DNA of 64,000 nucleotides. Source: Gemmatimonadaceae bacterium (GTDB lineage: Bacteria > Gemmatimonadota > Gemmatimonadetes > Gemmatimonadales > Gemmatimonadaceae). Positions within the stretch are counted from its first letter, which is position 1. Each line of letters opens with the position of its first letter. The notes under the pieces were generated by a model. The model searched no databases. It saw nothing but the letters and a program-made list of their open reading frames with translations, and was not told where the DNA came from. The DNA lies in NCBI GenBank assembly GCA_025358925.1, contig JANYHT010000036.1, positions 1 through 64,000 on the forward strand, in the 5' to 3' direction. This document shows positions 8,990 through 29,632 of this stretch, one piece after another. The translations under genes and the position numbers were made by a program.

Positions 8990-10136
8990 CTAGAACCGCG
9001 CCTCGAGCTTATCCATCGCTGCCGAAAGGTGCGCTCCGTTCTGTTGTGCATACCGTTCGACCATCGCCAGCGTCTTGTGGCCGCTGATGCGCTTAACGGT
9101 GGGCAGGTCGATGTCGGCCTGAACGAGGTGCGTGATCGTGGTATGCCGCAACGTGTGACGGACTACAAGATCAGGATCCAGTCCGGCCGCAGTTACTACC
9201 CTCCGGAACGGGATGTGAATGTCCAACGCGTGTCCACTCTTCGCGGTCGGTGAGGGAAACAGCCATGGTGATTCGTGGGCCGTCGCCTCCATCCAATCTT
9301 GAAGGAACGTCGCGACACGCGCTGTGATGGGTTGCTCTCTTGCGCCGGCCTTTGCCTTCGGGATGAAGATGATGCGCCGCTCGACATCGATGTTTTCGTG
9401 TCGAATGGACAAATTTCCATGCGACGCATCGACGTCTCGACGCCGATGACGATGAAGGGGTAGACCTGCGGGTTCTGATCCTGCTTGGCGCACTCGATGA
9501 GTCGCGCCACCTGCTCGACGGTCAAGTACGTTATGCGCCCCTGGGATTCCGTGAGCCGCTTGATCCGTGTGGGTCGGCGGTCAATCCAGCCCCAATCGAT
9601 TGCCATGTTGAACAGGTGAGACAGCACGGCGAGTTCTCGATTGATCGTCGCGGGCTTGGTTTGCGTCGCTTTGCCCTCACCGCGCACGATTGTCTTTCCT
9701 CGCGGTCTGACCTCAACGGCCTCCTTCGCGCGCTGGTGTTTATAGCGTTCGATGTCGAGAGGACTGATCTTCGAGAGGGGCATGTCTCCGAAGAAGGGAA
9801 TCAGGTGCGACTGCAGCCGCTGGCGCTTCATCCGAAGGTCCTTGCCGTCGGTTGCCGCCAAACGCTCGAGATACGTAGTCGCCGCCGCTCGGAATGACAT
9901 CGCAAGCTTGCGCCCCTTGGGGAGTGCGAGTCGACCATTGCGGGCATTGCTGCGCTGCTCTCGATGAACTGCTCGGCATGGGTACGCGTCGTGCCGTCCG
10001 ACTCACGACCGACCACGCGATGAATGCGCGCACCGTCGACCATGATGTTGATGCTGTATACGCCGTCGCCTTACGCGTCGCGCGCGAAGGTGATGCCATG
10101 CTCAGTGACCGCCCTACCGGCCTCCAACTGGTTCAT
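8990..10136 (-). pseudogene. Tyrosine-recombinase integrase, inactivated (one stop, two frameshifts)
   Basis: Reading the minus strand from ATG 10136: MNQLEAGRAVTEHGITFARD, then an in-frame TAA, then GVYSINIMVDGARIHRVVG in the same frame. A frameshift near 9950 leads to NARNGRLALPKGRKLAMSF and the core-binding domain (RQRLQSHLIPFFGD), and a second near 9425 leads into the catalytic C-terminus. The catalytic set is otherwise there: Arg in SMRRMEI, Lys in IPKAKAGAREQP, HTLRH, SGHK and the Tyr of MVERYAQ. The family is the phage-type site-specific recombinase with an arm-binding N-terminus. Three lesions imply a dead gene. It lies 2.4 kb from the tRNA-Phe, on the opposite strand. Confidence 0.85.
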
Positions 10137-10151
10137 TGCCGCGCGTGTTAA

Positions 10152-10256
10152 ACGCGAAACTTGCGAGCCACGCGCGTCGTGCCCCACGTCGACGTCGACG
10201 TCGAGCGCCGGGCGCTCACGCAGTACGCGTCGCTGGTCGCGGACCGTGCGCCATGA
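10152..10256 (+). pseudogene. IstA transposase remnant (C-terminal ~34 codons)
   Basis: Only the tail of an IS21-type IstA remains: a frame reading RATRVVPHVDVDVERRALT and ending QYASLVADRAP, with its TGA overlapping the ATG of istB by four bases, the usual istA-istB arrangement. A TAA at 10149 ends the upstream extension, so the DDE catalytic core and the left end are gone. Confidence 0.6.
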
Positions 10257-11074
10257 GTACGCTCCGCGATCGCCTGCGCGCGCAGCTCGCCGACTGCAAG
10301 ATGCCCGGCGCGCTCGAAGCCGTCGATGACATTCTCCGGCGCATTGATGCCGGGGAACTCACCGCCGGTCCGGCCATGGAAACGCTGCTCGGCAGTCACA
10401 TTGCGCTTCGCAATCAGCGCCGCTTGCAAACCGCAATGCGGTGCGCGCGGCTCCCGGCAGTGAAGACACTCGACGACTTTGACTTCACGTTTCAGCCGTC
10501 GGTGAAACGCGATCAGCTGGAGAGTTTGCACACCCTCCAGTTTCTCGAGCGCAAGGAAAACGTCGTCTTCTTCGGCCCGCTTGGCGTTGGCAAAACGCAC
10601 CTCGCGAACAGTCTCGCCGTGATCGCGGCGGAGCGCGGAAGACGCGCCTACTACGCCACGCTGGCGGATTTAATCACGTGGCTCGAAGACGCGCAGCACG
10701 CAGGCCATCTCACGCGTCGGCTCCGTACGCTCGTGTCGCCGAGTCTGATGGTCGTTGACGAAATCGGCTACCTGCCGATCTCCCGCACCGGCGCGCAGCT
10801 GTTCTTCCAGCTCATGAGTCGCCGCTACGAGCACGCGTCGACGGTGCTCACGAGCAACAAGGCCTTTGAAGAATGGGGCGAGGTGTTCGGCGACGACGTG
10901 ATGGCCGCCGCGCTCATCGATCGCCTCGTGCATCACTGTCACATCGTCAATATCCGCGGGAACAGCTACCGCATGCGCGAGCACCGCGCGCTCGCCAGTC
11001 GGCTCGCGCCCACCGCCCCGCCCGAGCCGCCGCACGACTCCCGTGAACGCCGCCCTCGCCGACAGGAGGCCTAA
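10253..11074 (+). CDS. istB: IstB-like ATPase of IS21 family
   Basis: A 273-residue AAA+ ATPase that assists IstA transposase in target selection. Walker A is GPLGVGKTH and Walker B LMVVDEIGYLP; the family block LTSNKAFEEWGEVFGDD and the C-terminal RLVHHCHIVNIRGNSYR are present. The start is ATG 10253, overlapping the TGA of the IstA tail. It looks intact and full length although its partner is missing. The tail is proline- and arginine-rich. Confidence 0.93.
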   Translation: MSTLRDRLRAQLADCKMPGALEAVDDILRRIDAGELTAGPAMETLLGSHIALRNQRRLQTAMRCARLPAVKTLDDFDFTFQPSVKRDQLESLHTLQFLERKENVVFFGPLGVGKTHLANSLAVIAAERGRRAYYATLADLITWLEDAQHAGHLTRRLRTLVSPSLMVVDEIGYLPISRTGAQLFFQLMSRRYEHASTVLTSNKAFEEWGEVFGDDVMAAALIDRLVHHCHIVNIRGNSYRMREHRALASRLAPTAPPEPPHDSRERRPRRQEA

Positions 11075-14137: not shown

Positions 14138-17100
14138 TCAGAACGTGTATCGAAGACCGGCCTGCAATTGCCAGCGTGACTGCAGATCATCGACTTGATA
14201 CGGTGTTCCCGCCAATGGATCGAAGCTGAAGTTTGGCGTGCTACCGACGCCCCGCCCCGAACGATACGCGAGCGGATACACGTTCTGATTATTCAGGTTC
14301 GGCACGAAGTAGAACTTCCCCCAGTTATTGTTGAGCAGATTCGAGACATTTAGTACATCGAGCGTCAACTGTAGATTGTGCGGCGTCGCACTTTGATCCA
14401 CGCGAATGTCCTGCGACAATCGGAGATCAGCGCGGTGATTCCATGGCGTGCGCGCGCCGTTTCGTTCGGCAACTTGGCCGCGATGCGAATTGAGGTACGA
14501 GTCGGAACTGATAAATCTGTCAAGATCAGTCCATATCTGTGCCGGTGTACGCATGTCAACCAATCCAGCCGGACGACTTGACGGAATAAGGTTGATTTCG
14601 CTTTGGGTGCGCGGAATGTAGATCAGGTCATTATTTGCCGACCCATCGTTGTTCACGTCGCCGGTATAGACATACGAGAACGGACTTCCGGACTGCCCGG
14701 TATAGACAACAGACGCCGACGTGGCGGTGCGAGTGCTCCACGCGTGGTTCCAGCTCGCAGTTGCGACGACACGATGCCGGATGTCGAAATTTGAGTACAC
14801 GAGCGGATACTTGTTTGCTTCGTACAATTGATTGTATTCGACATTTGACTGCGGTGAATTGCGTTGTCCGTTGGCGATGTCCTTGGATCGCCCAAACGTG
14901 TAGGCGCTTGTGAGATCAAATCCGTCGCCAAATGTTTTGCGCAAACTCGCCGTGAGGTTGTAGCGGAAGCCTTGATTGGTGTTACTCAGCACATACACGG
15001 CCGAATACGGATTTGCCACACCGATTGGCGCGATCAAGCGCGATGCTGGATAAATTGGCCGAGGATCCGCGCCGCCCAAATTGCCGCTCGACGTCGGAAT
15101 ATCTTGGTTCGTGTAGAGAATATCCTTCAACACTTTCGTGTACGACCCTTCCAACGTCAACCGCGTACGCGCGGGCAACGTCATATCGACGGCCAGATTT
15201 CCGCGCGCCATTTGCGGTTGCACATATTTGTTGTCGATCAAGTTGATTTCGTACACGTTGCCTTGTTTGTACAGTGAATTAATCGTGCTCTGCTGATTCG
15301 GGTCGATGATCAGAGGTACACTGGTCAAGGTCGCGTTGTACGCAGGTCTGTAGTCCACATTGGCAAACTGGATGCCGTTGTTCAGAAACGGATACGCGAA
15401 CCACGCGAACGGCATGCGTCCCTGAAATACACCAACGCCGCCGCGTACGACCAACGCGGATTGCGGCGCGACATCCCACGTGAAGCCGATGCGTGGCGCC
15501 ACGGTAATCGAACGACCGTAGTCGTTCGCATACTTCGCAAATGGTTGCGCGCCGTCGGCGGACGTGAAATTCGCGAAGGTCGATGCTTGCGACGCTTTGT
15601 CGGTGGTGGTCGCTTCGATGCGAACGCCGAGTGAAAGTCGAAGGTTTGATGCAAGCGCGATTTCATCCTGGACGTATGCGCTGGGCGTAAACACGTTAAA
15701 ATCAGCGCTCGGCGTGCCACTAACTGCGCTGAGCGTGTTGTTGTTTACGCTGTACGTGGCGCGAATACGGTTTGGCTGCCCCGCGAGGAATGCGGCGAGA
15801 TTTGGATACTGCCAGCGCCCGTTGTACGAGTTCAGAAACGTGTATTGCACTTTGTACATCTCATTGTGGGACCCGATGGTTACGGTGTGCCTGCCGCCAC
15901 TCCACGTGAGATTGTCGGTGAGTTCGAGCGTGCTCGTATGCTGGCGATACACGGCTGACTCACGGTCGCTGCCAGCGTTGATCTGGCCATACCCAAGGTC
16001 CGCGATCTCGATTTGCGGAGAAATTTGTGTGCCGTACGGTGTGCGTTTGTCGCTGACGACTGAGAAGCCGCCAATCAAACTGTTCGACAGGCTGTTGTTA
16101 ACCTGCGTCTTTAGTTCGGCCACCAATCCATTCGTGGTGCTGTGATGTACGAAGTCCTGCGAAGCGAGCTTGTTCAGCGACTGGCCACGTTCAAGGTTGC
16201 CCGCCTCGGCTGACACAAAGTTATCGCGTACCGTAAGCACTGAATTGCCGACGTTCGCATCGATGCGGGCGAGAAATTTCTGACTGTTTGCATTGATCGT
16301 ATAATTGCTGATCGACCCGGGATCGAAGCCAGTAAACCCTGCACGTGCGGCATATGATTTAAGTGAGTCGCGCACCAACGCTGCCACGTTTGCCGTGAGC
16401 AGGGCGCCCGTTGATCCAGGTGCAAACAATACAGGGTCGGTGTGTCGTGAAACCTCTGCGTTCAGAAAGTAGAACACTCTGTTTGTGAGGAGAGGACCGC
16501 CGAGTCTTGCCCCGATTGAATAATTCTGAAAACCCGTGGGCAATGCACCGGAAAGGCCACGCCCGATGAATGACGGCGCCTGACCAAAGGTGTACACCGA
16601 ACCGGTCGTGCTATTCGTGCCCGCCCGCGTCACCGCGTTCACGCTTGCTCCAGTAAAGCTGCCGATCTTCACGTCGAACGGTGAAAGGGAAACGGATACC
16701 TGTTCGACCGCGTCGAGAGAGATTGGCTGTGTGCGCGCTAACCCACCGGGCGTCCCAGTCGGTACCGATGCGGTTGAGCTTCCCGACGATTGACTAAATC
16801 CAAACGCGTCGTTCGAACTGGCACCGTCGATCGTGAAGTTGTTGTAGCGGAAGTTCGAACCGGCAAACGAGACGCCATTGCCCTCCGGCGCGAGTCGCGT
16901 CATGTCTTGCAAGCTGCGCGACACTGTCGGAAGGCGCTGCAGTACTCGCTCGCTGACTTCCGTACTCGTGCCGGTCTTCCGAGCCACCTGTACGAGGTCT
17001 GCCGTCACGCCAATCAGTGCGAGTTGCACCGACGTTCGCTCTAGCGCGTAGTCGCGAGTCGACGAAAGACCCAATGTCACCGACAGATTGTGAATAGCGA

Positions 17101-17368
17101 GTGCTTTGTAACCGATCGCTGTCACCAGCACCGAATACGGATTGCCAGGCCGCAGATTCGCAGCGGTAAAGCGTCCATCGTCGTGCGAGCGAATCAGTAG
17201 TCGTTGCCCTGTCGGCTCAAAGATGATCGTGACGAGCGCATTCGGTACGATGACACCGCTGGCGTCGTGCACTGTGCCGGACAGCGAACCACTGGTGATC
17301 TGTGCGTTTGCCATTGCGGAGCATAGTGCCACCACCAATGCAGTGCTTGTGATCAGAAAAGAGCGCAT
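14138..17368 (-). CDS. Oar-like TonB-dependent outer-membrane receptor
   Basis: A 1076-residue protein from ATG 17368, chosen because it opens with signal peptide MRSFLITSTALVVALCSAM; ATG 17413 is a longer alternative. A carboxypeptidase-regulatory-like domain follows (SGTVHDASGVIVPNALVTI), then a plug with NNFTIDGASSNDAFGF and PISLDAVEQVSVSLSPFDVK, and a long barrel ending in QLQAGLRYTF with terminal aromatic. The layout matches Oar/TonB receptors common in Gemmatimonadota, Myxococcota and Acidobacteriota. The substrate is unknown. It is divergent from the response regulator, and the shared 266-base gap holds an 11-bp direct-repeat motif that could control both. Confidence 0.88.
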   Translation of the reverse strand: MRSFLITSTALVVALCSAMANAQITSGSLSGTVHDASGVIVPNALVTIIFEPTGQRLLIRSHDDGRFTAANLRPGNPYSVLVTAIGYKALAIHNLSVTLGLSSTRDYALERTSVQLALIGVTADLVQVARKTGTSTEVSERVLQRLPTVSRSLQDMTRLAPEGNGVSFAGSNFRYNNFTIDGASSNDAFGFSQSSGSSTASVPTGTPGGLARTQPISLDAVEQVSVSLSPFDVKIGSFTGASVNAVTRAGTNSTTGSVYTFGQAPSFIGRGLSGALPTGFQNYSIGARLGGPLLTNRVFYFLNAEVSRHTDPVLFAPGSTGALLTANVAALVRDSLKSYAARAGFTGFDPGSISNYTINANSQKFLARIDANVGNSVLTVRDNFVSAEAGNLERGQSLNKLASQDFVHHSTTNGLVAELKTQVNNSLSNSLIGGFSVVSDKRTPYGTQISPQIEIADLGYGQINAGSDRESAVYRQHTSTLELTDNLTWSGGRHTVTIGSHNEMYKVQYTFLNSYNGRWQYPNLAAFLAGQPNRIRATYSVNNNTLSAVSGTPSADFNVFTPSAYVQDEIALASNLRLSLGVRIEATTTDKASQASTFANFTSADGAQPFAKYANDYGRSITVAPRIGFTWDVAPQSALVVRGGVGVFQGRMPFAWFAYPFLNNGIQFANVDYRPAYNATLTSVPLIIDPNQQSTINSLYKQGNVYEINLIDNKYVQPQMARGNLAVDMTLPARTRLTLEGSYTKVLKDILYTNQDIPTSSGNLGGADPRPIYPASRLIAPIGVANPYSAVYVLSNTNQGFRYNLTASLRKTFGDGFDLTSAYTFGRSKDIANGQRNSPQSNVEYNQLYEANKYPLVYSNFDIRHRVVATASWNHAWSTRTATSASVVYTGQSGSPFSYVYTGDVNNDGSANNDLIYIPRTQSEINLIPSSRPAGLVDMRTPAQIWTDLDRFISSDSYLNSHRGQVAERNGARTPWNHRADLRLSQDIRVDQSATPHNLQLTLDVLNVSNLLNNNWGKFYFVPNLNNQNVYPLAYRSGRGVGSTPNFSFDPLAGTPYQVDDLQSRWQLQAGLRYTF

Positions 17369-17495
17369 GACGACCAGAGCTGGAGAAAGACCAATCGGAC
17401 GCGCCTTCGACATTGTGTCATCGCATGCCCGGTGGATCAAGGCAGGTTATGATGCGGGATCTCATCACAACGTCGTTGCGTTGTCATTTGTACTA

Positions 17496-17517
17496 TTCTT
17501 TGTGGGTTCTTAGTGGA
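17496..17517 (+). promoter_or_regulatory. 11-bp direct repeat, candidate response-regulator box 1
   Basis: TTCTTTGTGGG followed directly by TTCTTAGTGGA: two TTCTT half-sites exactly 11 bases apart, one helical turn, as in PhoB-type boxes. It lies 118 bases before the response-regulator start and matches 18 of its first 20 bases to the site at 19936. Confidence 0.6.
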
Positions 17518-17634
17518 GAATCGTGTTGTCGTCGCTAGACAATCGCTGAGTCGTTACTTTCTCGATACAAAAGGGCGATTTTCCGATTTGTGCGCTGCTG
17601 CTGCAAGCCGTTCACCCGTCTACGAGCGTCGTCC

Positions 17635-18333
17635 ATGTATCACACCGACAGTATCCTGATCATTGAAGACGATTTCCATATTCGTCGCGCGGTTGCTAAC
17701 GCACTGAGCGAGACGGCACGCACGATCACCGAGGCATCGACCGGTCGCGAAGGCATCGAACGCGCGGCGGTCGATCATCCCGATTTGATCGTCCTCGATC
17801 TCGGGTTGCCCGACCAAGAAGGCATTGACGTGTGTCGTCGACTTCGCAGTCAATCAAGCGCGCCCATCGTTGTGCTGTCCGCTCGGCACTCTGACGACGA
17901 AAAGGTTCAACTGCTGAATGCTGGTGCAGATGATTACGTCACGAAACCGTTTAGTATTCCGGAGTTCGTAGCGCGCGTGCACGCGCAATTGCGTCGAGCG
18001 AACTTATATGGCGCTGCGGACGAAACAACAGTACTCCGAGTGCATGATCTGATGATCGATGTCTCGCGGCGCACGGTGATGCGGGGGGAGGATTCGATAC
18101 ACCTCACGCCCGTGGAATGGAATATTCTGCGTGTCCTCGTCACGCAGGCCGGACGCACGCTCACGCATCGACAAATATTTCACGCGGCGTGGGGCCGATC
18201 GTTCGGTAATCCGCAGCAGCACTTGCGTGTCCATGTCACGCATCTTCGTCGCAAGATCGAACGCGATCCGACATCACCGGAAATTATTATAACGGAACCG
18301 GGAGTCGGCTATCGTTGTGAATTGCTCCCATGA
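17635..18333 (+). CDS. KdpE-like OmpR/PhoB family response regulator
   Basis: A 232-residue regulator. The receiver domain has the acidic pocket EDD (11-13), phosphoacceptor Asp55 (LIVLDLGLPD), Ser82 and Lys104 (YVTKPF). The C-terminal winged helix shows HLTPVEWNILRVLV and VHVTHLRRKIERDP, ending TEPGVGYRCELLP, which is KdpE-like. ATG 17635 is preferred to an upstream start with a Cys-rich leader. Its stop overlaps the kinase start (ATGA). No kdpFABC genes are nearby; the next operon is an RND pump, so its targets probably differ from potassium transport. Confidence 0.9.
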   Translation: MYHTDSILIIEDDFHIRRAVANALSETARTITEASTGREGIERAAVDHPDLIVLDLGLPDQEGIDVCRRLRSQSSAPIVVLSARHSDDEKVQLLNAGADDYVTKPFSIPEFVARVHAQLRRANLYGAADETTVLRVHDLMIDVSRRTVMRGEDSIHLTPVEWNILRVLVTQAGRTLTHRQIFHAAWGRSFGNPQQHLRVHVTHLRRKIERDPTSPEIIITEPGVGYRCELLP

Positions 18334-19904
18334 CTCGCAGCGAGATTCGCCGGTGGCTGTTTTGGCTTGTGCTGCTGGCCGTCGTGACCGCGACGTTTCG
18401 ATCATTGCGCGGATACTTGGGTCAGGTGCATGTGGCGATCCTGTATCTCCTACTCGTGCTCGTGGGTAGTAGTCGTGGAGGTCGCGCCCTCGGCCTGACC
18501 TTGGCGGCGCTCTGTTTCGCATTTATTGACTACTATTTTCAGGCGCCATACGACACGCTCGCCGTTGGTCTTGGTGTTGACTGGGTGACCCTGTTTGCGT
18601 TTTTGTCGACGGCGACGGTAGCAACCAATCTTCTGGTTCGCGCGCGAAACGAAGCAGCGGAGGCAAGTCGACGCACCGAAGAGGCGCGCGCGTTATCCGC
18701 GCTCGGCGCCGAGACGTTGCGGCACGCGAGTCCAGAGGACGCGCTCATAGCCATCGTCTCGATTATTCAGCATGAGCTGCAGATCGCGCGATGCACGCTC
18801 TATCCGTGGTCAGCAATTCGCGGTCTCGGTGAAGCGAGGAATAGCGTGTCCCCGCATGGCGCAAACATCTTGGCGATCGTGGACACCACTGTCGTGGTCT
18901 CCACCGCTGAGCAAGGAAGTGCCTTTATCGTGCGTGGTTCTGGGCAACCAGTGGCGTTGGCGACCACGCCCACGGATGCTGTGCCCTCATCGACGTTCGA
19001 CGATGCGCGTGTCCTGCTCCTTCCGTTGCGCATTGAGCAACGCGTTGTCGGCGTACTCACCATTGCCGACGTGAAACCATTGACGCTGGACGCCGCGCAG
19101 CGACGCTTTGTGACGGCGCTCGCGTATTTCGCCGCTGTTGCGGTGGAACGCGAGTATCTCGCGGCGGCTACCGCGCATGCGGCGGCGTTGCGTGAGGCGA
19201 ACCGTCTCAAGGACATCGTGCTTGCGTCGGTCTCGCATGATCTTCGCACGCCGCTCACGACGATTAAGGCGCTGGCGCAGAGCGAAGCGATGCACGGCAG
19301 TGTGCTCGGTCTGGCGATTGAAGAGCAAGCGGATCGCTTGTCGCGATTGGTGAGTGATCTCTTGGAGATTTCTCGACTGCGCGGCCACGAGCTGCCGATG
19401 GAGGTGGAGATAAATACGGCCGAAGATCTCATCGGTGCGGTGGTGCGACAGACGCGCGGAATTCTCGATGGGAAGCGCATTCAGGTGTCGCTGGATGACC
19501 ACGCGACCACGCTTATCGGCAGTTTTGACTTTGTGCACGCGCTTCGTAGTCTCGGCAATTTAGTGGAAAACGCCCTGCGATTTACGCCGATGCATGGTAT
19601 CGTCGAGATCAGTGCAGCGCGACGTGATCGCTGGCTCTCGATCAGTGTTGCAGACCGTGGACCTGGCGTATCGACGAGCGAGCGTGAGGAAATTTTTGAG
19701 CTGTTTTATCGTCGTGAAGGCACGGCGGCGGATGTCGGACACGCGGGAATGGGGCTTGCTATCGCGCGTCAACTTGCAGAGGCGCAGGGCGGAACGGTGC
19801 ACTACACACCACGGGCCGGAGGTGGAAGTGTCTTTACCTTGCAGCTGCCGTCGGTCGATTTCGCAGAGCCGCGTGACGAGCAGACGCAGGACGAGTTGAC
19901 GTAA
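18330..19904 (+). CDS. KdpD-like sensor histidine kinase lacking the N-terminal KdpD/Usp domain
   Basis: A 524-residue inner-membrane kinase. Residues about 8-105 form the DUF4118 four-helix membrane domain (VHVAILYLLLVLVGSSRGGR). A GAF-like region follows (about 120-275), then HisKA with His303 in LASVSHDLRTPLTTIKA and HATPase with N-box LGNLVENALRF, G1 DRGPGVS and G2 GMGLAIA. Classic KdpD is about 900 residues and begins with KdpD and universal-stress domains; those are absent, so the kinase keeps only the C-terminal half and probably senses another cue. The gene overlaps the regulator by four bases. Confidence 0.9.
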   Translation: MTRSEIRRWLFWLVLLAVVTATFRSLRGYLGQVHVAILYLLLVLVGSSRGGRALGLTLAALCFAFIDYYFQAPYDTLAVGLGVDWVTLFAFLSTATVATNLLVRARNEAAEASRRTEEARALSALGAETLRHASPEDALIAIVSIIQHELQIARCTLYPWSAIRGLGEARNSVSPHGANILAIVDTTVVVSTAEQGSAFIVRGSGQPVALATTPTDAVPSSTFDDARVLLLPLRIEQRVVGVLTIADVKPLTLDAAQRRFVTALAYFAAVAVEREYLAAATAHAAALREANRLKDIVLASVSHDLRTPLTTIKALAQSEAMHGSVLGLAIEEQADRLSRLVSDLLEISRLRGHELPMEVEINTAEDLIGAVVRQTRGILDGKRIQVSLDDHATTLIGSFDFVHALRSLGNLVENALRFTPMHGIVEISAARRDRWLSISVADRGPGVSTSEREEIFELFYRREGTAADVGHAGMGLAIARQLAEAQGGTVHYTPRAGGGSVFTLQLPSVDFAEPRDEQTQDELT

Positions 19905-19935
19905 CGGGATCAACCAGTCCGCGATGTCGCGTACG

Positions 19936-19957
19936 TTCTTTGTCGATTCTTAGTGCC
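19936..19957 (+). promoter_or_regulatory. 11-bp direct repeat, candidate response-regulator box 2
   Basis: TTCTTTGTCGA followed directly by TTCTTAGTGCC, the same tandem arrangement as at 17496. It lies 75 bases upstream of the efflux operon's first start (20032), an appropriate distance for activation. Confidence 0.6.
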
Positions 19958-20031
19958 CTCTCAATTTACGATACTGCCAATGGAAGCGGCGAGAATGCAC
20001 GCCGCGTCGTACAACCTTAGTCCTCAGATTC

Positions 20032-21180
20032 GTGTTTTCTCCTCTGCTCACGCGTACACTCGCAATGCGCGTGATTGCGGCGGGCGTCGCGTCCATCGCG
20101 TTCACGTCGTGCAGTGTCCCCGTCAACGCCGAACACACGGCGATGCCCCTGCCGCCTGGCGAAGTGCATTTCGATGCGGACTCGCCAAAGTTAGCGACAC
20201 TGCACATCGATACCGTTCGCGCGCGCGCTGAGCGGGTGCTCGCGACATTGCCCGCGCATGTCAGCGCGGACGAGAATCATACTGCCCGCGTACTCTCGCC
20301 TGTGACTGGACGCGTTACGGCGCTCTTAGTACAGCCCGGCGATCGCGTGCAGGCGGGTCAAGCACTCGCGCGTCTGATTTCAGCGGATGCCAGTCAGGCC
20401 AGTAGTGAGGTCGCGCGCGCGCGCGCGATTGTCAGCGTTACCGATGCAGCGCTCACACGCGCCAGTGATCTCTACACGCATCACGTGATTGCCATGCGAG
20501 AACTGGAGCAGGCGCGTTCCGACGCGGCGCAAGCACATGTGGAGGAATCGCGCGCCCGCAATCACCTCATGCAGCTTGGCTTGGCGCCGGATGCCACCGG
20601 AACGGACTACGTCCTTCGGGCGCCCATCGACGGTGTAGTGGTGGAGCGCACGGTCAATCCAGGAGCTGAGGTACGACCTGATGCATCCGTACCGTTGTTC
20701 ACGATCTCCTCGATGAGTCAGGTGTGGCTGACAGCACGCGTGTACCAGAAAGAATTGCCATATGTGCAAAACGGCGTGCGTTTGGTGTTCACGACCGAGG
20801 CGATGCCCGGTCGTTCGTTTGAAGGTCGCGTGTCGTTTGTTAGTGCAACACTTGACGCGACGACACGCACCGGACTTGTACGGGCAGTTGTTACGAATGC
20901 CGATGGTGCGCTCCGTCCGGAGATGTTTGGGGAGGCGCGATTGCTCACGCCAGACAAAAATGCGACGCCCGTTATTGCAACGCGTGCACTGATTACGCAC
21001 GGCCGCGAAACCATCGTGTACGTCGAACGTACACCGGGCACATTTGTGCGCCGCGTCGTACGTGTCGGAGACGATGATGGCACGTGGGCGAGCATTGCCG
21101 ACGGTTTGCGCGTTGGAGAGCGCGTGGTGACCGACGGATCACTTCTGTTAGACGCTGAAGCGAACCACGTTCCCGGATGA
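20032..21180 (+). CDS. RND efflux periplasmic adaptor (membrane-fusion protein), lipoprotein
   Basis: A 382-residue adaptor of the HlyD/CusB group. GTG 20032 opens the frame; ATG 20065 is a good alternative giving MRVIAAGVASIAFTSC, a lipoprotein signal. The lipoyl half-motifs are HTARVLSPVTGRVTALLVQP and TDYVLRAPIDGVVVERTV, flanking a helical hairpin (about 130-190). The beta-barrel part (QVWLTARVYQKELPYVQNG) and membrane-proximal part follow. It bridges the inner-membrane permease and the TolC protein. Its stop overlaps the permease start by four bases. Confidence 0.9.
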   Translation: MFSPLLTRTLAMRVIAAGVASIAFTSCSVPVNAEHTAMPLPPGEVHFDADSPKLATLHIDTVRARAERVLATLPAHVSADENHTARVLSPVTGRVTALLVQPGDRVQAGQALARLISADASQASSEVARARAIVSVTDAALTRASDLYTHHVIAMRELEQARSDAAQAHVEESRARNHLMQLGLAPDATGTDYVLRAPIDGVVVERTVNPGAEVRPDASVPLFTISSMSQVWLTARVYQKELPYVQNGVRLVFTTEAMPGRSFEGRVSFVSATLDATTRTGLVRAVVTNADGALRPEMFGEARLLTPDKNATPVIATRALITHGRETIVYVERTPGTFVRRVVRVGDDDGTWASIADGLRVGERVVTDGSLLLDAEANHVPG

Positions 21181-24100
21181 TTCGGCAAATCGTACGCTTT
21201 GCGTTGCGCCAGCGTGTTCTTGTGCTTGGTGCGACGGCGGTGGTCATCGTCGTGGGTGTGCTGGCATTTCGTGGATTGGCCGTCGAAGCGTTTCCGGATG
21301 TCGAAGACGTGCACGTGCAGATCATTTCGCAGTGGCCCGGACACGCCGCGGAGGAAATCGAACGGGCTGTGACGTTACCGATTGAGCGACAGATGAATGG
21401 GCTGCCGCAGCTCTCGAACTTGCGTTCAACGTCAATGTTTGGCTTGTCCGTTGTGACACTCACTTTTGAGGATGGCACAACGGATTACTTCGCGCGCCAG
21501 CAGGCGCTCGAGCGTTTGCAAAGCGTGACCGTTCCGCCAACGGTGCTCCCCGGTCTTTCGTCGTTATCAAATTCGACCGGGGAAATATTTCGCTATACCG
21601 TTCAAGGCGCGCGCTCACTCACCGATTTAAAAGCGATTGAAGACTGGGTAATCGAACCGGCGATTCGCACCACAAGCGGAATTGCAGATGTGGTGTCATT
21701 TGGCGGTCAGGTCAAGCAATATCAGGTTGATGTCGATCCCGCCAAGCTGCAGGCATATGGCGTGACGTTGACGCAAGTCGAACAAGCAATTGCCGGCGCC
21801 AATATGAATGCTGGCGGTGGCTATCTCTCGCACGGTTTTGAGCGGCAGGTGGTGCGTGGCGTGGGACTGTTCACGTCAATTCACGACATTGCCGATGTCG
21901 CGATTGCCACACATGACGGGACCGCAGTCCGTGTCCACGATATTGGCGCGGTAAGTATTGGTGGCGCACCGCGTGAAGGGATTGTTGCCAAAGACTCGAT
22001 AGACGACGTGGTCGAAGGCATCGTGCTGATGCGCAAAGGAGAGAATGCGCTGCAGGTGCTTGATCGACTGCGCGTCAAAGTCGCCGATATCAATCGCACG
22101 CTGCTCGCGCCCGATGTTCGGATCGTGCCGTATTACGATCGCGCCGCGCTGGTGAAGCACACTGTCCGCACCGTCGAAGAAAACTTGGCGATTGGTGCGG
22201 CGCTTGTGCTGCTCATTCTTATCGTATTCCTGGGCGATTGGCGAAGTGCGTTAATCGTCGGAGTCATTATTCCGATATCGCTGCTCTTTGCGTTCATCCT
22301 CATGGCGTGGCGCGGCGTCTCGGCAAATCTTATTTCGCTTGGCGCGGTGGACTTTGGCATCATCGTGGACGCTGCGGTGGTGATGGTGGAATCGTTTCTT
22401 GTGCGACTCGCACTCGCCCCGCCAGCGACGGCCGAGCAGCTGCGGCGCACCCATGAACACGAGATCGAGGCACCGATTGGTGCGGTAACGCCGAGTATGG
22501 TGGTGACCGACGGTGTGGATTTTGCGCGTCGGGCGTCCGTGGAAGCGCGACACCGCTTGGCGGTCATTGCAGAATCGATGGGTCGTCCAATTGTTTTTGC
22601 GAAAGCGATTGTCATCACAGCCTTCTTACCAATTTTCACATTTCAGCGTGTCGAGAAGCGCATCTTCTCCCCGATGGCGTACACGCTGACGTTTGCGTTA
22701 CTGGGTTCGCTCTTGCTATCGCTAACTCTTGTGCCGGTGCTGGCGAGTTTCTTTATAAAGCCAACGCCTGGTGCCGCGGAACCGATGGCGGCGCGCTGGC
22801 TGCAGCGTCGCTTTGCGCCGATGCTTGAGTGGGTGCTTCGGCATTCGCGCGCAACGTTGTGGGGAGCGGCAGTCGCGCTGCTGCTCACCTTAGGTATCGC
22901 CACGCAACTCGGCACTGAGTTTCTGCCCGCGCTGGATGAGGGCAACATCTGGCTCACTGTGACGATGCCCGTTGGTATCGCATTGGATCAGGCGAAGCAG
23001 GTTGAGCGAAAAGTGCGAGGCGTGTTACAACAGTACCCACAAGTTGCGCGCGTCGTCACGCATCTTGGTCGGCCTGACGATGGGACTGACCCAAAAGGCG
23101 CGAACAATCTGGAAGTATACGCGGACTTGATTCCCCGCGAACTTTGGGGAGTGGTGCAGGACAAAGAAGAAATCATTCAAAAAATGCGCAAACAGTTAGA
23201 GGCCATTCCAGGCATTGACCTCAACTTCTCGCAGTACATCAAGGATAACGTCGAGGAGGCGCTCTCTGGTGTGAAGGGTGAATTGGTGGTAAAGATTTTT
23301 GGTCCCGACCTTGCGGTGCTGCAACAAAAGGCCGTTGAGGTGCAGCAAGTGCTCAATGGTGTGCGCGGTGTTGCTGATCTGGGCGTGGATCAGCAGTTTG
23401 GCCAACCACAAGTCCGGGTAGAGTTTGATCGGGCTGCGCTCGCGCGCAACGGGATCGCAATGAGTGATGCCGCTGATGCGTTAGAGACCGCGGTGGGCGG
23501 ACGGGCGGTTACCCAGATGTTGGAGCAGGACCGCGTGTTTGATGTGCGCGTTCGATACGTCGGTGCGTCACGCGATAACATTCGCGCGCTGTCGCAGCTG
23601 CCCGTGTACGGTGCGGACGGACATGTCGTTCCGCTTTCGGCGCTCGGACTAATTATCACGGCCGAAGGTGCATCGCGTATTTCGCGCGAAGCAAATGAAC
23701 GGCGGATTGCCGTGAAATGTTCTGTCCGCGGACGTGATGAGGGTGGTTTTGTGACCGAGGCACAAGCAGCAGTGGCACGTCATGTCACGTTGCTGCCGGG
23801 CTATCATCTCGTGTGGGGCGGGCAGTTTGAAAATCAGCGACGGGCGACGCAACGACTCGCGGTGATTGTTCCGACCAGTATCGCGCTGATTTTTCTCCTG
23901 CTCTTCAGCGCCTTTGGTTCAGTGAAATATGCCGTGCTTGTGTTGGCGAATTTACCGTTCGCGCTGATCGGCGGTGTGCTGACGCTGTGGATGCGGCACA
24001 TCAACTTGAGTGTGTCCGCGGCTGTTGGATTTATCGCCCTGTTTGGCATTTCTGTGCAAAATGGCGTGCTGTTAGTTGAAGAGTTCAATCATCGGCGCGC

Positions 24101-24356
24101 TAACGGACACAACCTGCGTGATGCCGTTCGACTCGGCACGATGGATCGCTTGCGACCGATCACCATGACCGCGTTAATGGCTGCACTCGGCCTGTTGCCT
24201 GCGGCACTTTCTACCAGCATTGGTGCCGAAACGACGCGACCGTTTGCCAGCGTGATCGTGGGCGGACTGGTGAGCGCCACGTTACTCACGCTGCTGTTGC
24301 TTCCGTTGCTTTACATCATGTTTCACGAGGATCCGCATGTTGAAATTCCGCGCTAG
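21177..24356 (+). CDS. CusA/CzcA-type heavy-metal RND efflux permease
   Basis: A 1059-residue inner-membrane proton/metal antiporter. It shows the RND N-terminus (RVLVLGATAVVIVVGVLAFR), two large periplasmic loops and 12 helices. TM4 reads DFGIIVDAAVVMVES, keeping the two Asp and the Glu of the HME-RND proton relay (DFGxxVDxxVxxxE). This signature separates the heavy-metal family from multidrug AcrB pumps. I cannot tell whether it exports Cu/Ag, Co/Zn/Cd or Ni. It is cotranscribed with the adaptor, an unknown lipoprotein and TolC. Confidence 0.92.
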   Translation: MIRQIVRFALRQRVLVLGATAVVIVVGVLAFRGLAVEAFPDVEDVHVQIISQWPGHAAEEIERAVTLPIERQMNGLPQLSNLRSTSMFGLSVVTLTFEDGTTDYFARQQALERLQSVTVPPTVLPGLSSLSNSTGEIFRYTVQGARSLTDLKAIEDWVIEPAIRTTSGIADVVSFGGQVKQYQVDVDPAKLQAYGVTLTQVEQAIAGANMNAGGGYLSHGFERQVVRGVGLFTSIHDIADVAIATHDGTAVRVHDIGAVSIGGAPREGIVAKDSIDDVVEGIVLMRKGENALQVLDRLRVKVADINRTLLAPDVRIVPYYDRAALVKHTVRTVEENLAIGAALVLLILIVFLGDWRSALIVGVIIPISLLFAFILMAWRGVSANLISLGAVDFGIIVDAAVVMVESFLVRLALAPPATAEQLRRTHEHEIEAPIGAVTPSMVVTDGVDFARRASVEARHRLAVIAESMGRPIVFAKAIVITAFLPIFTFQRVEKRIFSPMAYTLTFALLGSLLLSLTLVPVLASFFIKPTPGAAEPMAARWLQRRFAPMLEWVLRHSRATLWGAAVALLLTLGIATQLGTEFLPALDEGNIWLTVTMPVGIALDQAKQVERKVRGVLQQYPQVARVVTHLGRPDDGTDPKGANNLEVYADLIPRELWGVVQDKEEIIQKMRKQLEAIPGIDLNFSQYIKDNVEEALSGVKGELVVKIFGPDLAVLQQKAVEVQQVLNGVRGVADLGVDQQFGQPQVRVEFDRAALARNGIAMSDAADALETAVGGRAVTQMLEQDRVFDVRVRYVGASRDNIRALSQLPVYGADGHVVPLSALGLIITAEGASRISREANERRIAVKCSVRGRDEGGFVTEAQAAVARHVTLLPGYHLVWGGQFENQRRATQRLAVIVPTSIALIFLLLFSAFGSVKYAVLVLANLPFALIGGVLTLWMRHINLSVSAAVGFIALFGISVQNGVLLVEEFNHRRANGHNLRDAVRLGTMDRLRPITMTALMAALGLLPAALSTSIGAETTRPFASVIVGGLVSATLLTLLLLPLLYIMFHEDPHVEIPR

Positions 24357-24795
24357 CGCTGAGAGAAGGGTGAGATGGGTCGCCGTGTTGTTTTTGCTCA
24401 CGGCGTGCACGCCCGCAATGCGCGAGTACGGTCAACGTCCGCAGCCGCTTGCGCGTGATTGGCTAGACACAAAAAAAACGTTGCCGATGGATACATCCGT
24501 TTGGCGTCTTTCGACCAACGGCACAGATCTCACAGTGCACGTGTTGGTTCGGTCAAACGGTGTGGGCGGAAAACCACAGGAAGTGCTTTCGCGCCGTGGC
24601 ATCTGGTATGTGCGCGGTAGGCTTGCGGATACGCAGCGAGTCATCTGCTTTAATCGTCGGCCCGGGCGCGCGGCGTCCTCGTGCATCCCGTTTGTCCTGG
24701 ACACGATGCGTGATGGACGACTGCGGTTGGTGCTGCGTGAGTATGTTGGCACGCACGAGACGGCACCACGCACGCTGATCGAGCGACGACCGTGA
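24337..24795 (+). CDS. Hypothetical lipoprotein within the RND operon
   Basis: A 152-residue protein overlapping the end of the permease gene by 20 bases and the TolC gene by four. The N-terminus VRWVAVLFLLTAC is a lipoprotein signal with a good lipobox. The mature part has no domain I recognise; it contains two cysteines (VICFNRRPG and SSCIPFV) 15 residues apart and beta-type strands. Its place between pump and outer-membrane channel suggests a pump accessory, but that is inference. Confidence 0.75.
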   Translation: MLKFRASAERRVRWVAVLFLLTACTPAMREYGQRPQPLARDWLDTKKTLPMDTSVWRLSTNGTDLTVHVLVRSNGVGGKPQEVLSRRGIWYVRGRLADTQRVICFNRRPGRAASSCIPFVLDTMRDGRLRLVLREYVGTHETAPRTLIERRP

Positions 24796-26030
24796 GGCGC
24801 GTGCAGATCGTGTGGCTGCTTTCGCTCTTCGCAATATCGACGGGTCAGGCGCAGTCGGTTGTTGATGGACCAACGGCTGTAGGACTCACTCTGTCGCAAG
24901 CGGTAGCCCTCGCGTTACGGCACAATCTCGACGTCCGTACAGCGCGAAGCACGATCGATTCCGCCAGCGCGGAAGGGCGCATCGCGCGCGCAATTCCCAA
25001 TCCGCTGTATATCGGCAGCCCAAACTCGCCATATCAATACGGCGCGAGCATACCGCTCGATGTGGGGCCGCAACGTCTCTACCGGGTTCGCGTTTCCACC
25101 TTCGGTATCGCGGCCGCCAATTTGGATGCGCGCGATGTGCAGCGGCAGGTCACGCTGTCAGTGCAGCGCGCGTTTTATGACGTGTTGCTGAGCGACGCAC
25201 AACGTGCGCTTGTCATCTCGCGACGCACGCTGCTGGCGCAACTGCATCTTGCGGATTCTGCACGAGTTCGCGCGGGCGATATTCCGGAACGCAATTTGAC
25301 TCGCAGCGCTATAGAACTTGCGCGCGCAGATGCGGATCTTGTACACGCGACGCTTGACGCGGAGAATACACGTTTATCCTTGCAGGCACTGCTCGGTGCA
25401 ACGGTGCCGGACGCTGCGCTCGTGCTCGATGGCACGCTGTCCACACCGAATGTACAGCTCCCGGGATTGGACACTTTATTGGCGCGCGCGACACGCGACC
25501 GCCCTGACCTTGCGGCGGCACAGCGTCGTATCGAGCAAGGACGTGCGCGCCGCCATCTCGCGGCGGCGTCGCTCATTCCAATTCCGGAGTTGACATATGT
25601 TCGACAGTTCAGCGCGCCGTTCGAATCGGGGCGTTATTACTCGTTGGGCCTGCAATTAGAAGTGCCGATTTTCAACATGTATCGTGGGCAGCGGGAACGA
25701 GCGGACGCCGCGAACGCCATCGCTGGATACGCGAACGAGCGTATCGTCGCGCAAGCCCAGCGCGATGTGACCAGCACCCGTCAGAATGCTGTAGCGCAGC
25801 AATCCATTGTCGAACAATTGACCGGTGCACTCAGCGATGCGGTGGATCGCAACGTCACAGCGGCAGAGTACGCCTACGCGCATGGCGCGACGTCACTTCT
25901 CGACGTGCTCGATGCCGTTCGCGCGCAGCAAGAATTACGGAGCGCGTATTTGCTTGCGGTTCATGACTATTGGGTGGCGTTATTCATGCTGGATGCTGCG
26001 GTCGCGATGCCAACCTCGCGCACACCGTGA
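24792..26030 (+). CDS. TolC family outer-membrane efflux protein
   Basis: A 412-residue protein starting at GTG 24792 (GTGA overlap with the preceding stop). A signal peptide ends TGQAQS. Two outer-efflux-protein repeats are visible (LTLSQAVALALRHNLDVRTA and LPGLDTLLARATRDRPDLAAA), each starting the long helices of the tunnel. It forms the outer-membrane channel for the upstream adaptor and permease (CusC/CzcC role). It is the last gene of the operon; 91 bases follow before the molybdoenzyme gene. Confidence 0.9.
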   Translation: MRRVQIVWLLSLFAISTGQAQSVVDGPTAVGLTLSQAVALALRHNLDVRTARSTIDSASAEGRIARAIPNPLYIGSPNSPYQYGASIPLDVGPQRLYRVRVSTFGIAAANLDARDVQRQVTLSVQRAFYDVLLSDAQRALVISRRTLLAQLHLADSARVRAGDIPERNLTRSAIELARADADLVHATLDAENTRLSLQALLGATVPDAALVLDGTLSTPNVQLPGLDTLLARATRDRPDLAAAQRRIEQGRARRHLAAASLIPIPELTYVRQFSAPFESGRYYSLGLQLEVPIFNMYRGQRERADAANAIAGYANERIVAQAQRDVTSTRQNAVAQQSIVEQLTGALSDAVDRNVTAAEYAYAHGATSLLDVLDAVRAQQELRSAYLLAVHDYWVALFMLDAAVAMPTSRTP

Positions 26031-26121
26031 TCGCAGTGGTGGAGCAGCGAAATTTCGTCTATACTCGAATTGGCGGACAACACACCAGCCGCGGAGGGGC
26101 TGTCCTGCCGTGAGGAATACG

Positions 26122-26730
26122 ATGACGACACGTGGATTTGTCGGCAAGCGACCAAGTACAGACGACGCGACGCGACTGCCACCAGGTCAATACCAGACGC
26201 ATGATTTTCCGGTGTTGTCGAAGGGTGCCACGCCGATTGTCGACCTCGCCACCTGGACGTTTACCGTCAACAACGGTGTTCGCCCTATCAAACAGCGGTC
26301 GTGGGCAGAATTTGACATGTTGCCGAAAACGACGTGGCGCGGCGATATCCACTGCGTCACGAAGTGGTCGAAGTTTGACACGATGTGGGAAGGCGTGAGT
26401 ATCGACGACGTGCTGCGGTCAGCGGGCATTGCGGCACCAACGGCGTATGTGCTGGCGAAGAGTTACGACGAGTACGACACCAACATCCCGATGGCTGATC
26501 TCGTAGGCGGCCAGGCAATGATTGCGACACGGTTCAACGGGGCGCCGCTAGCGGCCGAACACGGTGGTCCAGCGCGACTTTTTGTGCCGCATTTGTATTT
26601 TTGGAAAAGCGCGAAATGGATTCGCGGACTACGCTTCACGACTCGTGACGAAGCGGGTTTTTGGGAGTTACGCGGCTATCACATGTATGGCGACCCTTGG
26701 CGAGAGCAGCGCTACACAAATGATCTGTAG
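26122..26730 (+). CDS. Sulfite-oxidase-like molybdopterin oxidoreductase
   Basis: A 202-residue cytoplasmic protein with no signal peptide. ATG 26122 has a GAGGA Shine-Dalgarno; GTG 26110 is in frame upstream. The oxidoreductase molybdopterin-binding domain (PF00174) is shown by WRGDIHCVTKWS, whose Cys78 would ligate Mo, and by HGGPARLFVPHLYFWKSAKW and GFWELRGYHMYGDPWREQR. No dimerisation or haem domain. It lies two bases before a flavin reductase gene, the standard pairing for this subfamily. The natural substrate is unknown; sulfite or S/N-oxide chemistry is the family guess. Confidence 0.88.
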   Translation: MTTRGFVGKRPSTDDATRLPPGQYQTHDFPVLSKGATPIVDLATWTFTVNNGVRPIKQRSWAEFDMLPKTTWRGDIHCVTKWSKFDTMWEGVSIDDVLRSAGIAAPTAYVLAKSYDEYDTNIPMADLVGGQAMIATRFNGAPLAAEHGGPARLFVPHLYFWKSAKWIRGLRFTTRDEAGFWELRGYHMYGDPWREQRYTNDL

Positions 26731-26732
26731 CA

Positions 26733-27491
26733 ATGGCTGAGTCGCTGCATTGGCGTAGCGGCGTGATCGAACGCATCGCGCGCACGACGCCCAGCGTGAC
26801 GAATCTCTGGGTACGCGCCGCGGTGGCCCCGCACATCGCCGGACAACACATGGACGTGCGGCTCACGGCGCCCGATGGCTATCAAGCGCAGCGGAGCTAT
26901 TCGACTGCATCGGCACCGGGTGCACCGCTGATCGAGCTTGCGGTGGAAGCCCTAGAGGACGGCGAGGTGTCGTCGTATTTGTGCGAGATAGCGCAGGTTG
27001 GTGACACGGTCGAATTGCGTGGGCCCATTGGTGGCCATTTTATTTGGCCGCCTGACGAGTCGGGCCATGCGTCGGGTGCCGTGCTCTTGGTGGGGGGCGG
27101 CTCTGGCGTTGTGCCGCTGGTGTCGATCGTTCGAAGCCGGGCCGCGCGTAACGGGGCAGTGCGGGCCGCATCGCCAATGCTGCTCCTCTATTCGGCCCGC
27201 TCGTGGGAAGAGCTAATTTATCGCGATGAACTCATCGCGTTTGAAGCGAATGATCCGACGTTCATGCTGCGTTTTATGACGACGCGTGGTGAAAAGCATC
27301 GCGACGTGGATTTTGATCAGCGCCTTAACGAGATGTTGCTGCGCACGGCGCTAGCGCATTGGGGACAGACGGCGCAACTCGTTTACGTGTGCGGATCAAA
27401 CGCATTCGTCGAAACCATCACGTCGACACTCGTACATCAGTCGATCCCCGCCGAACGAATTCGCGCGGAACGCTACGGCGGCACGAGCTAG
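26733..27491 (+). CDS. FAD-binding ferredoxin-reductase-type oxidoreductase
   Basis: A 252-residue FNR-superfamily protein. The FAD site is QRSYSTASAPG, the nucleotide site LLVGGGSGVVPLVSIVR, and VYVCGSNAFVETI with a final aromatic-containing RYGGTS completes the NAD(P) domain. It should pass electrons from NAD(P)H to the upstream molybdoenzyme. It lacks the C-terminal 2Fe-2S domain found in PaaE, though it sits next to the paa genes. Its last four bases overlap the convergent enoyl-CoA hydratase gene. Confidence 0.85.
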   Translation: MAESLHWRSGVIERIARTTPSVTNLWVRAAVAPHIAGQHMDVRLTAPDGYQAQRSYSTASAPGAPLIELAVEALEDGEVSSYLCEIAQVGDTVELRGPIGGHFIWPPDESGHASGAVLLVGGGSGVVPLVSIVRSRAARNGAVRAASPMLLLYSARSWEELIYRDELIAFEANDPTFMLRFMTTRGEKHRDVDFDQRLNEMLLRTALAHWGQTAQLVYVCGSNAFVETITSTLVHQSIPAERIRAERYGGTS

Positions 27492-28279
27492 CGCGCGCGA
27501 AAACCAGCGATGGCGTTTCGTGTGAATTCTGACAACACCATCGTGCCGCTCATCCGTGCACGGTCGGCGAGCAGTTCGTCCCAATGTTCGGTGCCGGCCC
27601 AAAAGACTTGTTTGAGTTGCGCCATCGCTTCTGGATTGGAGGCGGCGAGTGTAGTCGCCAAGGCATCAACTGCGTGGTCCATCGCGGTCGCATCATCGAA
27701 GAGCCGCGCATACAGCCCGTGTCGTTCGCCCCAAGCGGCGTCGCGCCAATCGGCGTCAACGGCCATCGCGCTAAATGCCGCGAGCCCAATTTTTCGTTCA
27801 ATGACTGGCCCGACAACAAACGGACCAATACCGATCGCCAACTCGCTCAATTTTGCTGATGCCGTATGCAACGCCATACTGAAATCCGACGCGGCGATAA
27901 GTCCCACAGCGCCGCCAGCGGCCTTGCCATGCACTCGCGTGATCACAAATTTTGGCGCGCGAATCATCGCCAGGATAACGCCCGAAAATCCACTGAAAAA
28001 CTCTTGCCCCTGCGCGATGTTGGCGATCGACGTCAACTCGTCGAACGATGCTCCGGCACAGAACGGTCCAGACCCACCGCTTTGGAGCACAATGACACGG
28101 ACATCGGGGTGCGCGCCCATGGCGGTTACATCGGCCGCGAGTTGGCGAAGCAGCGACCCCGGAAGCGAGTTGCCTTTCGGATGTTGGAACGTGATGCGCG
28201 CGATCCCATCGCTGATGTGCACATCCACGTAACCGTCGATGACGGGCACAGAAGCGGAGTCGGTGGCATTGATCGTCAT
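27488..28279 (-). CDS. Enoyl-CoA hydratase/isomerase family protein
   Basis: A 263-residue crotonase. The oxyanion-hole segments are FCAGASFDEL and GKAAGGAVGLIAASD, and the catalytic Glu is in KLSELAIGIGPF. The first Glu of two-Glu hydratases (the CE of GGGCE) is Gly here, as in methylglutaconyl-CoA hydratases. It could provide the PaaF step (2,3-dehydroadipyl-CoA hydration), otherwise unseen in this cluster, or act in leucine breakdown. It is divergent from paaA with a 76-base gap that should hold both promoters. Confidence 0.82.
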   Translation of the reverse strand: MTINATDSASVPVIDGYVDVHISDGIARITFQHPKGNSLPGSLLRQLAADVTAMGAHPDVRVIVLQSGGSGPFCAGASFDELTSIANIAQGQEFFSGFSGVILAMIRAPKFVITRVHGKAAGGAVGLIAASDFSMALHTASAKLSELAIGIGPFVVGPVIERKIGLAAFSAMAVDADWRDAAWGERHGLYARLFDDATAMDHAVDALATTLAASNPEAMAQLKQVFWAGTEHWDELLADRARMSGTMVLSEFTRNAIAGFRAR

Positions 28280-28355
28280 GCCGACAAGCTAGTCGCGCGT
28301 TTCAATTGTCGAACCCCGTTGGCCGCAGCTGTTGGCCGTTGGTAGATTTCTTCTC

Positions 28356-29324
28356 ATGGAACAGACTACGCCCATGCACACAGACGATCCGTCCCTCGTT
28401 GCCGCGTTCGAAGCACGAATTGCCGCTGGCGAAAGCATCGAGCCAAAAGACTGGATGCCGGAGCGCTATCGCAAACAACTCACACGGATGATGTCGCAGC
28501 ACGCGCACTCCGAAATTGTGGGCATGCTCCCGGAAGGCAACTGGATTACTCGCGCGCCCAGTTTACGCCGCAAGATGTCGCTGATCGCGAAGGTGCAGGA
28601 TGAGGCGGGGCATGGCTTGTACATCTACTGCGGAACAGAAACGCTTGGCGTGGATCGTCACGAGCTCGTGCAGCAACTGTTGGACGGTCGCGCGAAATAT
28701 TCGAGCATCTTTAACTATCCGACGTTGTCCTGGGCGGACATGGGCGTGATTGGATGGTTGGTGGACGGCGCGGCGATTGTGAATCAGACGGTACTCGCGA
28801 AAGCGTCGTACGGACCATATGCGCGCGCCATGATTCGCATTTGCAAAGAAGAGAACTTTCATAAGCGGCAAGGCCTCGAGATTTGCGCGACGCTCGCGTC
28901 GGGCACACCAGCGCAAAAGGCGATGGTGCAAGACGCGGTGAATCGGTTCTGGTGGCCGGCGCTCATGATGTTTGGGCCGAGCGATACGGATTCGCCAAAC
29001 TCGGCGGAGTTGTTGAAGTGGCGCGTGAAGCGAAAGACCAACGATGAACTGCGTCAACGTTTCATCAATCTCACGGTGCCGCAGGCGCAAGCGATGGGTC
29101 TCACGTTGCCCGATCCCGACTTGATATTCAACGAGACGACCAAAGATTGGGAGTTTGGAGAGATCGACTGGAGCGAGTTTTTCGAAGTCATCAAAGGCAA
29201 CGGACCATGCAATCACGAGCGGTTGGCAGCACGACGTGATGCGCATGCGAACGGCGCGTGGGTGCGTGATGCGGCAGTCGCATACGCGGCGAAACACGAC
29301 GCGCGCGCCACTGCGGCCGCGTGA
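28356..29324 (+). CDS. paaA: Phenylacetyl-CoA 1,2-epoxidase subunit PaaA
   Basis: A 322-residue catalytic subunit of the diiron multicomponent monooxygenase. Iron ligands are visible in two ExxH motifs, EAGH (83-86) and EENFH (Glu166, His169), with Glu53 (HSEIVG) a further candidate. [29 protein letters not shown] and [18 protein letters not shown] are PaaA signatures. It epoxidises the aromatic ring of phenylacetyl-CoA with O2. ATG 28356 chosen. The stop overlaps the paaB start (ATGA), starting a tightly coupled paaABCD set. Confidence 0.95.
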
Positions 29325-29632
29325 TGACGACCAGCACCGACGCGGTCATCGATACGCAGTGGCCGTTATGGGAAGTGTTTACGCAAGCCGAGCAGGCCGC
29401 GCCGCATGAACATGCGGGCAGCGTGCACGCGGTGAATGCAGAGATGGCGTTGCAGAACGCGCGTGATGTGTACGCGCGGCGCGGTGAAGCGATCAGCTTG
29501 TGGGTGGTGCCGAGTGATGCGATCACGGCCTCGACGCCAGGCGATGCGGGTCCATTTTTTGATCCAGGAAACGACAAGGCTTATCGTCATCCACAGTTTT
29601 ATAAAGCACCGCGTGGAGTGCGCGTCTTTTGA
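29321..29632 (+). CDS. paaB: Phenylacetyl-CoA epoxidase subunit PaaB
   Basis: A 103-residue subunit. [20 protein letters not shown] and [20 protein letters not shown] are family signatures (PF06243). PaaB bridges PaaAC heterodimers into the active complex. It overlaps paaA by four bases; its TGA is nested in the next start region. Confidence 0.93.

Follow-up and report, generated by a model that had tools for sequence, protein, structure and literature searches.

Gene content of the locus

The DNA under study comes from a Gemmatimonadaceae bacterium with a 4.0-Mb assembly in 72 contigs, whose closest named relatives are Gemmatimonadaceae and Gemmatimonadetes MAGs; the window is the whole analysed stretch of 64,000 nucleotides. 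Genes for a divergent outer-membrane protein, a response regulator, a histidine kinase, an adaptor, a permease, a small lipoprotein and a TolC-family protein follow one another in this order, and two boxes of the same orientation lie in the promoter gaps around the two-component system:

14138..17440, minus strand: divergent outer-membrane barrel protein, start TTG 17440 or ATG 17368; PF25183, PF13620
17497..17515, plus strand: box 1, TCTTTGTG-GGT-TCTTAGTG, upstream of the regulator gene and pointing to it; unchanged in the nearest species (G018)
17536..17541, plus strand: weak candidate -10 element TAGACA, at +39 relative to the box 1 start, predicted from the sequence
17635..18333, plus strand: KdpE-clade OmpR/PhoB response regulator, 232 aa, recognition helix LRVHVTHLR
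18330..19904, plus strand: short KdpD-like histidine kinase, 524 aa, domains DUF4118-GAF-HisKA-HATPase
19937..19955, plus strand: box 2, TCTTTGTC-GAT-TCTTAGTG, at the pump promoter
19959..19966, plus strand: weak third half-site after box 2
19967..19972, plus strand: -10-like TACGAT, at +30 relative to the box 2 start, as in G018
20032..21180, plus strand: RND periplasmic adaptor, start GTG 20032 or ATG 20065; TIGR01730 above cut-off
21177..24356, plus strand: CusA/CzcA-type RND permease; TIGR00914, 943 bits against a cut-off of 701
24337..24795, plus strand: small probable lipoprotein of the operon; no family matches
24792..26030, plus strand: TolC-family outer-membrane factor; PF02321

The regulator combines a receiver domain (PF00072) with a winged-helix domain (Trans_reg_C, PF00486), the composition of an OmpR/PhoB response regulator. 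Its best NCBIfam model is KdpE (217.7 bits, below the equivalog cut-off of 325), and the KdpE structures 4kny and 4kfc top its named solved matches, which bears out an earlier note on this DNA that had called it KdpE-like. The paired kinase is devoid of the N-terminal part of KdpD, the model match starting at KdpD position 396 of 895. As in the CzcRS, CusRS and CopRS systems, the regulator-kinase pair stands beside a heavy-metal RND pump; in contrast to them, the regulator is closer to KdpE and scores far below the cut-off of the CzcR/CopR/SilR subfamily model TIGR01387 (158 bits against 279.2). The permease, placed among the heavy-metal (CusA/CzcA) RND permeases by its score, would transport a metal cation. 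Its nearest solved relative is the CzcA-like RND permease ZneA (PDB 4k0e), from which the window operon differs by an additional small lipoprotein gene; distant relatives of this lipoprotein stand after the permease in two other loci (L104 and L113).

Several neighboring genes are of other kinds. An IS21-type IstB ATPase gene (10136-11074) marks a mobile element about 3 kb from the outer-membrane gene. The TolC gene is directly followed by genes with molybdopterin oxidoreductase and flavin reductase-like domains (25825-27491), the reductase being kept in G018, and further downstream of the pump operon by phenylacetate catabolism genes (27488-30420; enoyl-CoA hydratase, PaaA/PaaC-family).

Candidate operator sites

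The earlier note had described two sites with half-sites 11 bp apart that agree at 18 of their first 20 bases, and each of these points proved exact: the 22-bp boxes occupy 17496-17517 and 19936-19957 on the plus strand, and the half-site spacing seen on inspection is exactly 11 bp within each. When at most three mismatches are allowed, the two boxes are the sole matches to the joint pattern in the window (none in 100 shuffles) and in the whole 4.0-Mb assembly again only there, the pattern read backwards giving three matches. The window contains nine same-strand pairs of 20-mers that agree at 18 or more positions, so such agreement alone is not rare; being unconvincing by itself, it was set behind the comparison with related genomes. 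It is position and conservation, not the 18/20 match, that make the box pair real.

In G018, whose regulator is 98% identical, both boxes are identical over 22 bases, with the two intergenic regions around them at 86% and 88% identity, and the gene order is kept from the outer-membrane gene through the lipoprotein. Two additional G018 contigs (C317 and C177; L057 and L111) carry 3' parts of a permease gene that are 99-100% identical to that of the window, and represent either strain variants or a duplication.

Conservation of the boxes upstream of orthologous pumps

A kinase-based search retrieved about 40 loci. Pairs of TCTTWGTG half-sites matching at least 13 of 16 positions within the 200 bp after the kinase stop occur at period 11 in 5 of 39 loci, compared with none or one locus at each of the other periods from 8 to 18 and an average of 0.025 in shuffled sequences. 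A permease-based search added orthologues in six other genera, and the pump-locus count refers to those 11 loci, from five genera and beyond the window and G018, for which upstream sequence is available. In 10 of these 11 orthologous loci (permease 68-74% identical) the first pump gene is preceded by a TCTTWGYG pair with a period of 11 and a match of 13/16 or better; the loci are unevenly sampled, five coming from one genus and three from another, and thus do not amount to 11 independent cases. No more than two pump loci carry such a pair at any other period. Since the degenerate half-site TCTTWGYG was composed after some of the pump loci had been viewed, the tests of period and geometry are the cleaner ones; a scan without any assumed sequence likewise peaks at period 11, with 8 of 12 loci versus 0-5 at the other periods from 8 to 30.

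Six of the 10 box-bearing loci (L047, L100, L103, L105, L108, L110) have the orthologous regulator-kinase pair as a direct neighbor. A further arrangement, regulator-kinase-box-outer-membrane protein-adaptor-permease, is found in a named MAG (L117), and regulator-kinase-box-outer-membrane protein in a genome of another family (G255, locus L195); the box contains TCTTTGTGATTTCTTAGCG in both. The earlier note had named loss of the motif under a retained gene order as the observation that would speak against it, and among the relatives compared no such loss occurred. Its broader claim of one regulator with a tandem site both at its own gene and at the pump is borne out for the pump, where the site recurs at period 11 only, and is weaker for the regulator gene, where the site is confined to some relatives. 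The G048 and G148 kinase genes (L103, L108) and the L117 permease gene look split over frames, either from assembly errors or from real frameshifts.

Promoter architecture and proposed mode of control

The boxes hold a fixed place in the pump promoters. The distance between the start of the box and a TAnnnT element is exactly 62 bp in 8 of 10 relatives, a coincidence that shuffled downstream sequences never approached (at most three loci on one shared offset in 5000 trials), and a second recognisable box stands at +32 in 5 of 10. The window and G018 have a single box with TACGAT and TAGGAT, respectively, at +30. As 30 equals 62 minus 32, this box corresponds to the proximal position, which overlaps the -35 region. 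A similar layout characterizes the kdpFABC and kup promoters of the family, where several loci have boxes at a distance of 32-33 bp from each other and 8 of 13 have TAnnnT at +29.

A PhoB-type activator takes over the contact made by the -35 element, and geometry of this kind is that of a tandem site in place of -35. The pump promoter thus appears to be built for such an activator. It shares with the pho box, a case of class II activation, the head-to-tail 11-bp repeat replacing -35 and the fixed distance to -10, and differs from it in the regulator clade and the half-site. We propose that a regulator dimer would bind head-to-tail on two TCTTWGYG half-sites 11 bp apart and that, because box 2 extends over the -35 position and starts 30 bp ahead of the -10 element, the regulator, once phosphorylated, most likely acts as an activator of the adaptor-permease-lipoprotein-TolC operon in the manner of PhoB, presumably with a metal as the inducer. 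In relatives, a distal box 32 bp further upstream is usual and lies on the same face of the helix. Taken as a whole, the two boxes are very probably tandem sites of the regulator encoded between them, part of a KdpDE paralogue that would serve as activator of a CzcA-type pump and, in some of the lineages, of its own genes. The earlier note was right in its account of the site, in the type of regulator it named and in taking the pump as a target.

The same overlap with the -35 position would also allow the regulator to act as a repressor, a protein bound at box 2 blocking polymerase. We consider this improbable, given that the fixed box-to--10 distance fits activation and that the layout is common to the kdp and kup promoters, KdpE being an activator in E. 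coli (PMC3264566).

Box 1 most likely mediates autoregulation of the regulator-kinase operon, a reading less secure than control of the pump. Boxes of like orientation lie upstream of the regulator in G018, L009, L050, L194 and L199 and inverted ones in L049 and L200; many relatives have none. The distance from box to -10 varies, being 39 bp in the window and L009, 53 in L050 and 30 in L194. The candidate TAGACA of the window does not match TAnnnT; L009 has TAGAAT at the same distance.

Box 1 was also considered as a site acting on the divergent outer-membrane gene, and this was rejected, as the box points to the regulator and, among the pump loci, the outer-membrane gene adjoins the regulator only in the window and G018. 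A role of the box at this gene found no support. The gene product, a TonB receptor in the earlier note and perhaps TonB-like, matches a barrel (PF25183) and CarboxypepD_reg, with no plug match at E<=0.001.

Relationship to KdpDE and possible change of specificity

The genome of the window encodes a second KdpE-like pair, located beside kdpFABC (L075) and away from the pump locus; the regulator of the window is linked to the RND pump and not to kdpFABC. The potassium-linked paralogues of this genome and its relatives precede kdpFABC or kup, with the related box TCTTWAYG-n3-TCTTWAYG at these promoters; the pump-linked system is a KdpDE paralogue. The kinase tree splits, with 99/95 support, into all members linked to kdpFABC or a K+ permease and all pump-linked members together with others; a small group of neither context (L040-L044) is placed with the potassium-linked members. 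Resolution is lower in the regulator tree.

The KdpE site of E. coli is TTTATA-N5-TTTACA, and R193, R200 and T215 are needed for its recognition (PMC3264566). All three residues are kept in the window regulator, which shares with the KdpDE systems of E. coli and Pseudomonas the regulator clade and the 11-bp direct repeats. Measured against TTTA(T/C)A repeats with a 5-bp spacer, the period of 11 is the same and the half-sites of the window, TTTGTG and TTAGTG, differ. Pseudomonas kdpFABC promoters contain TCTTTACG-n3-TCTTTATG, in the same frame and period as the window boxes. The window system thus departs from KdpDE in its target, a metal RND pump instead of kdpFABC, in the truncated kinase, in the helix LRVHVTHLR and in the half-site (TTWGYG versus TTTAYR/TTTAYG for KdpE).

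The recognition helix follows the clades, being LRVHxT[N/H]LR on the pump-linked side versus LRVYx[A/G]HLR in most potassium-linked members. G at half-site position 6 was counted in 24 of 30 cases with the H195/T197 type, in 5 of 24 with Y195 and in none of 20 with V195; as the cases are related by descent, the counts are not independent, and counterexamples exist (L076, L201, L069), so the link between helix and specificity is put forward as a hypothesis. It is conceivable, and we suggest it tentatively, that a paralogue of the KdpE lineage moved from the control of potassium to that of metal (and other) efflux, its half-site changing from TTWAYG to TTWGYG via Y195H, A/G197T and often H198N, with the layout of two tandem boxes 32 bp apart and a fixed -10 being kept. 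The helix changes would then be the cause of the altered half-site. A strict rule by which H195 means G was discarded in view of the exceptions; residue 195 is also outside the base-contacting positions listed from the comparison with PhoB.

The kinship of the two systems raises the question of cross-talk: the boxes could be real operators of a different KdpE-type regulator, for example the kdp-linked paralogue, which would read them alone or along with the pump-linked one and so couple the pump to the potassium or osmotic state. The presence of both pairs and related boxes in one genome is consistent with this, as is the use of TCTTTGTG by some potassium promoters (L051, L076). The relatives argue mostly in the other direction, since in most loci the box goes together with the efflux-clade pair, and since it is missing in G092, which has the pump orthologue and where the only kinase found belongs to the potassium clade, in effect a natural negative control; G131 is the exception, with box and pump present, yet only a potassium-clade kinase found. 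Together with the different helices and half-sites of the two clades, this makes shared control quite unlikely. In G119 the box and the pump are on one contig and the efflux-side regulator on another, which suggests that the regulator acts in trans. That the boxes match by chance or are left over from a small duplication, and play no part in regulation, is scarcely credible despite the nine comparable 20-mer pairs of the window, and is contradicted by the period- and position-specific conservation before orthologous pumps and the exact retention in G018 amid diverged flanks.

The proposed control by the KdpE-like pump-linked regulator connects a lineage of potassium-type regulators with metal efflux and gives a two-component system of a poorly studied phylum a concrete predicted operator and target. 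In the open-licence literature we found no paper that describes RND metal pumps of this phylum under the control of a KdpE-like regulator; the present analysis adds the membership of the boxes in the KdpE box family, the promoter layout with two boxes, the split into clades and the possible change of specificity. With their common promoter layout, the potassium- and pump-linked paralogues would allow one to test cleanly how small a number of protein changes is enough to re-address a regulator, and the specificity shift, if true, would be a compact natural case of regulator rewiring.

Further candidate members of the regulon

A search of this genome for TCTTWGYG pairs with up to two mismatches gave 12 matches versus 17 in the reversed control, and the best extra match (C1:61801) is inside a coding region; for these reasons no further target is claimed in the genome. 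On the efflux side, L038, L039 and L042 stand before an MFS transporter, and the role of the clade may extend to a broader range of efflux or envelope functions. In G136 and G140, both of one genus, there are further boxes before small membrane-protein genes beside the pump, which are possible extra members of the regulon. The boxes at L047:1424-1442 and in L107, where the box is on the strand opposite to the pump, are associated with a TatA-like ORF and a shared membrane protein of ~194 aa.
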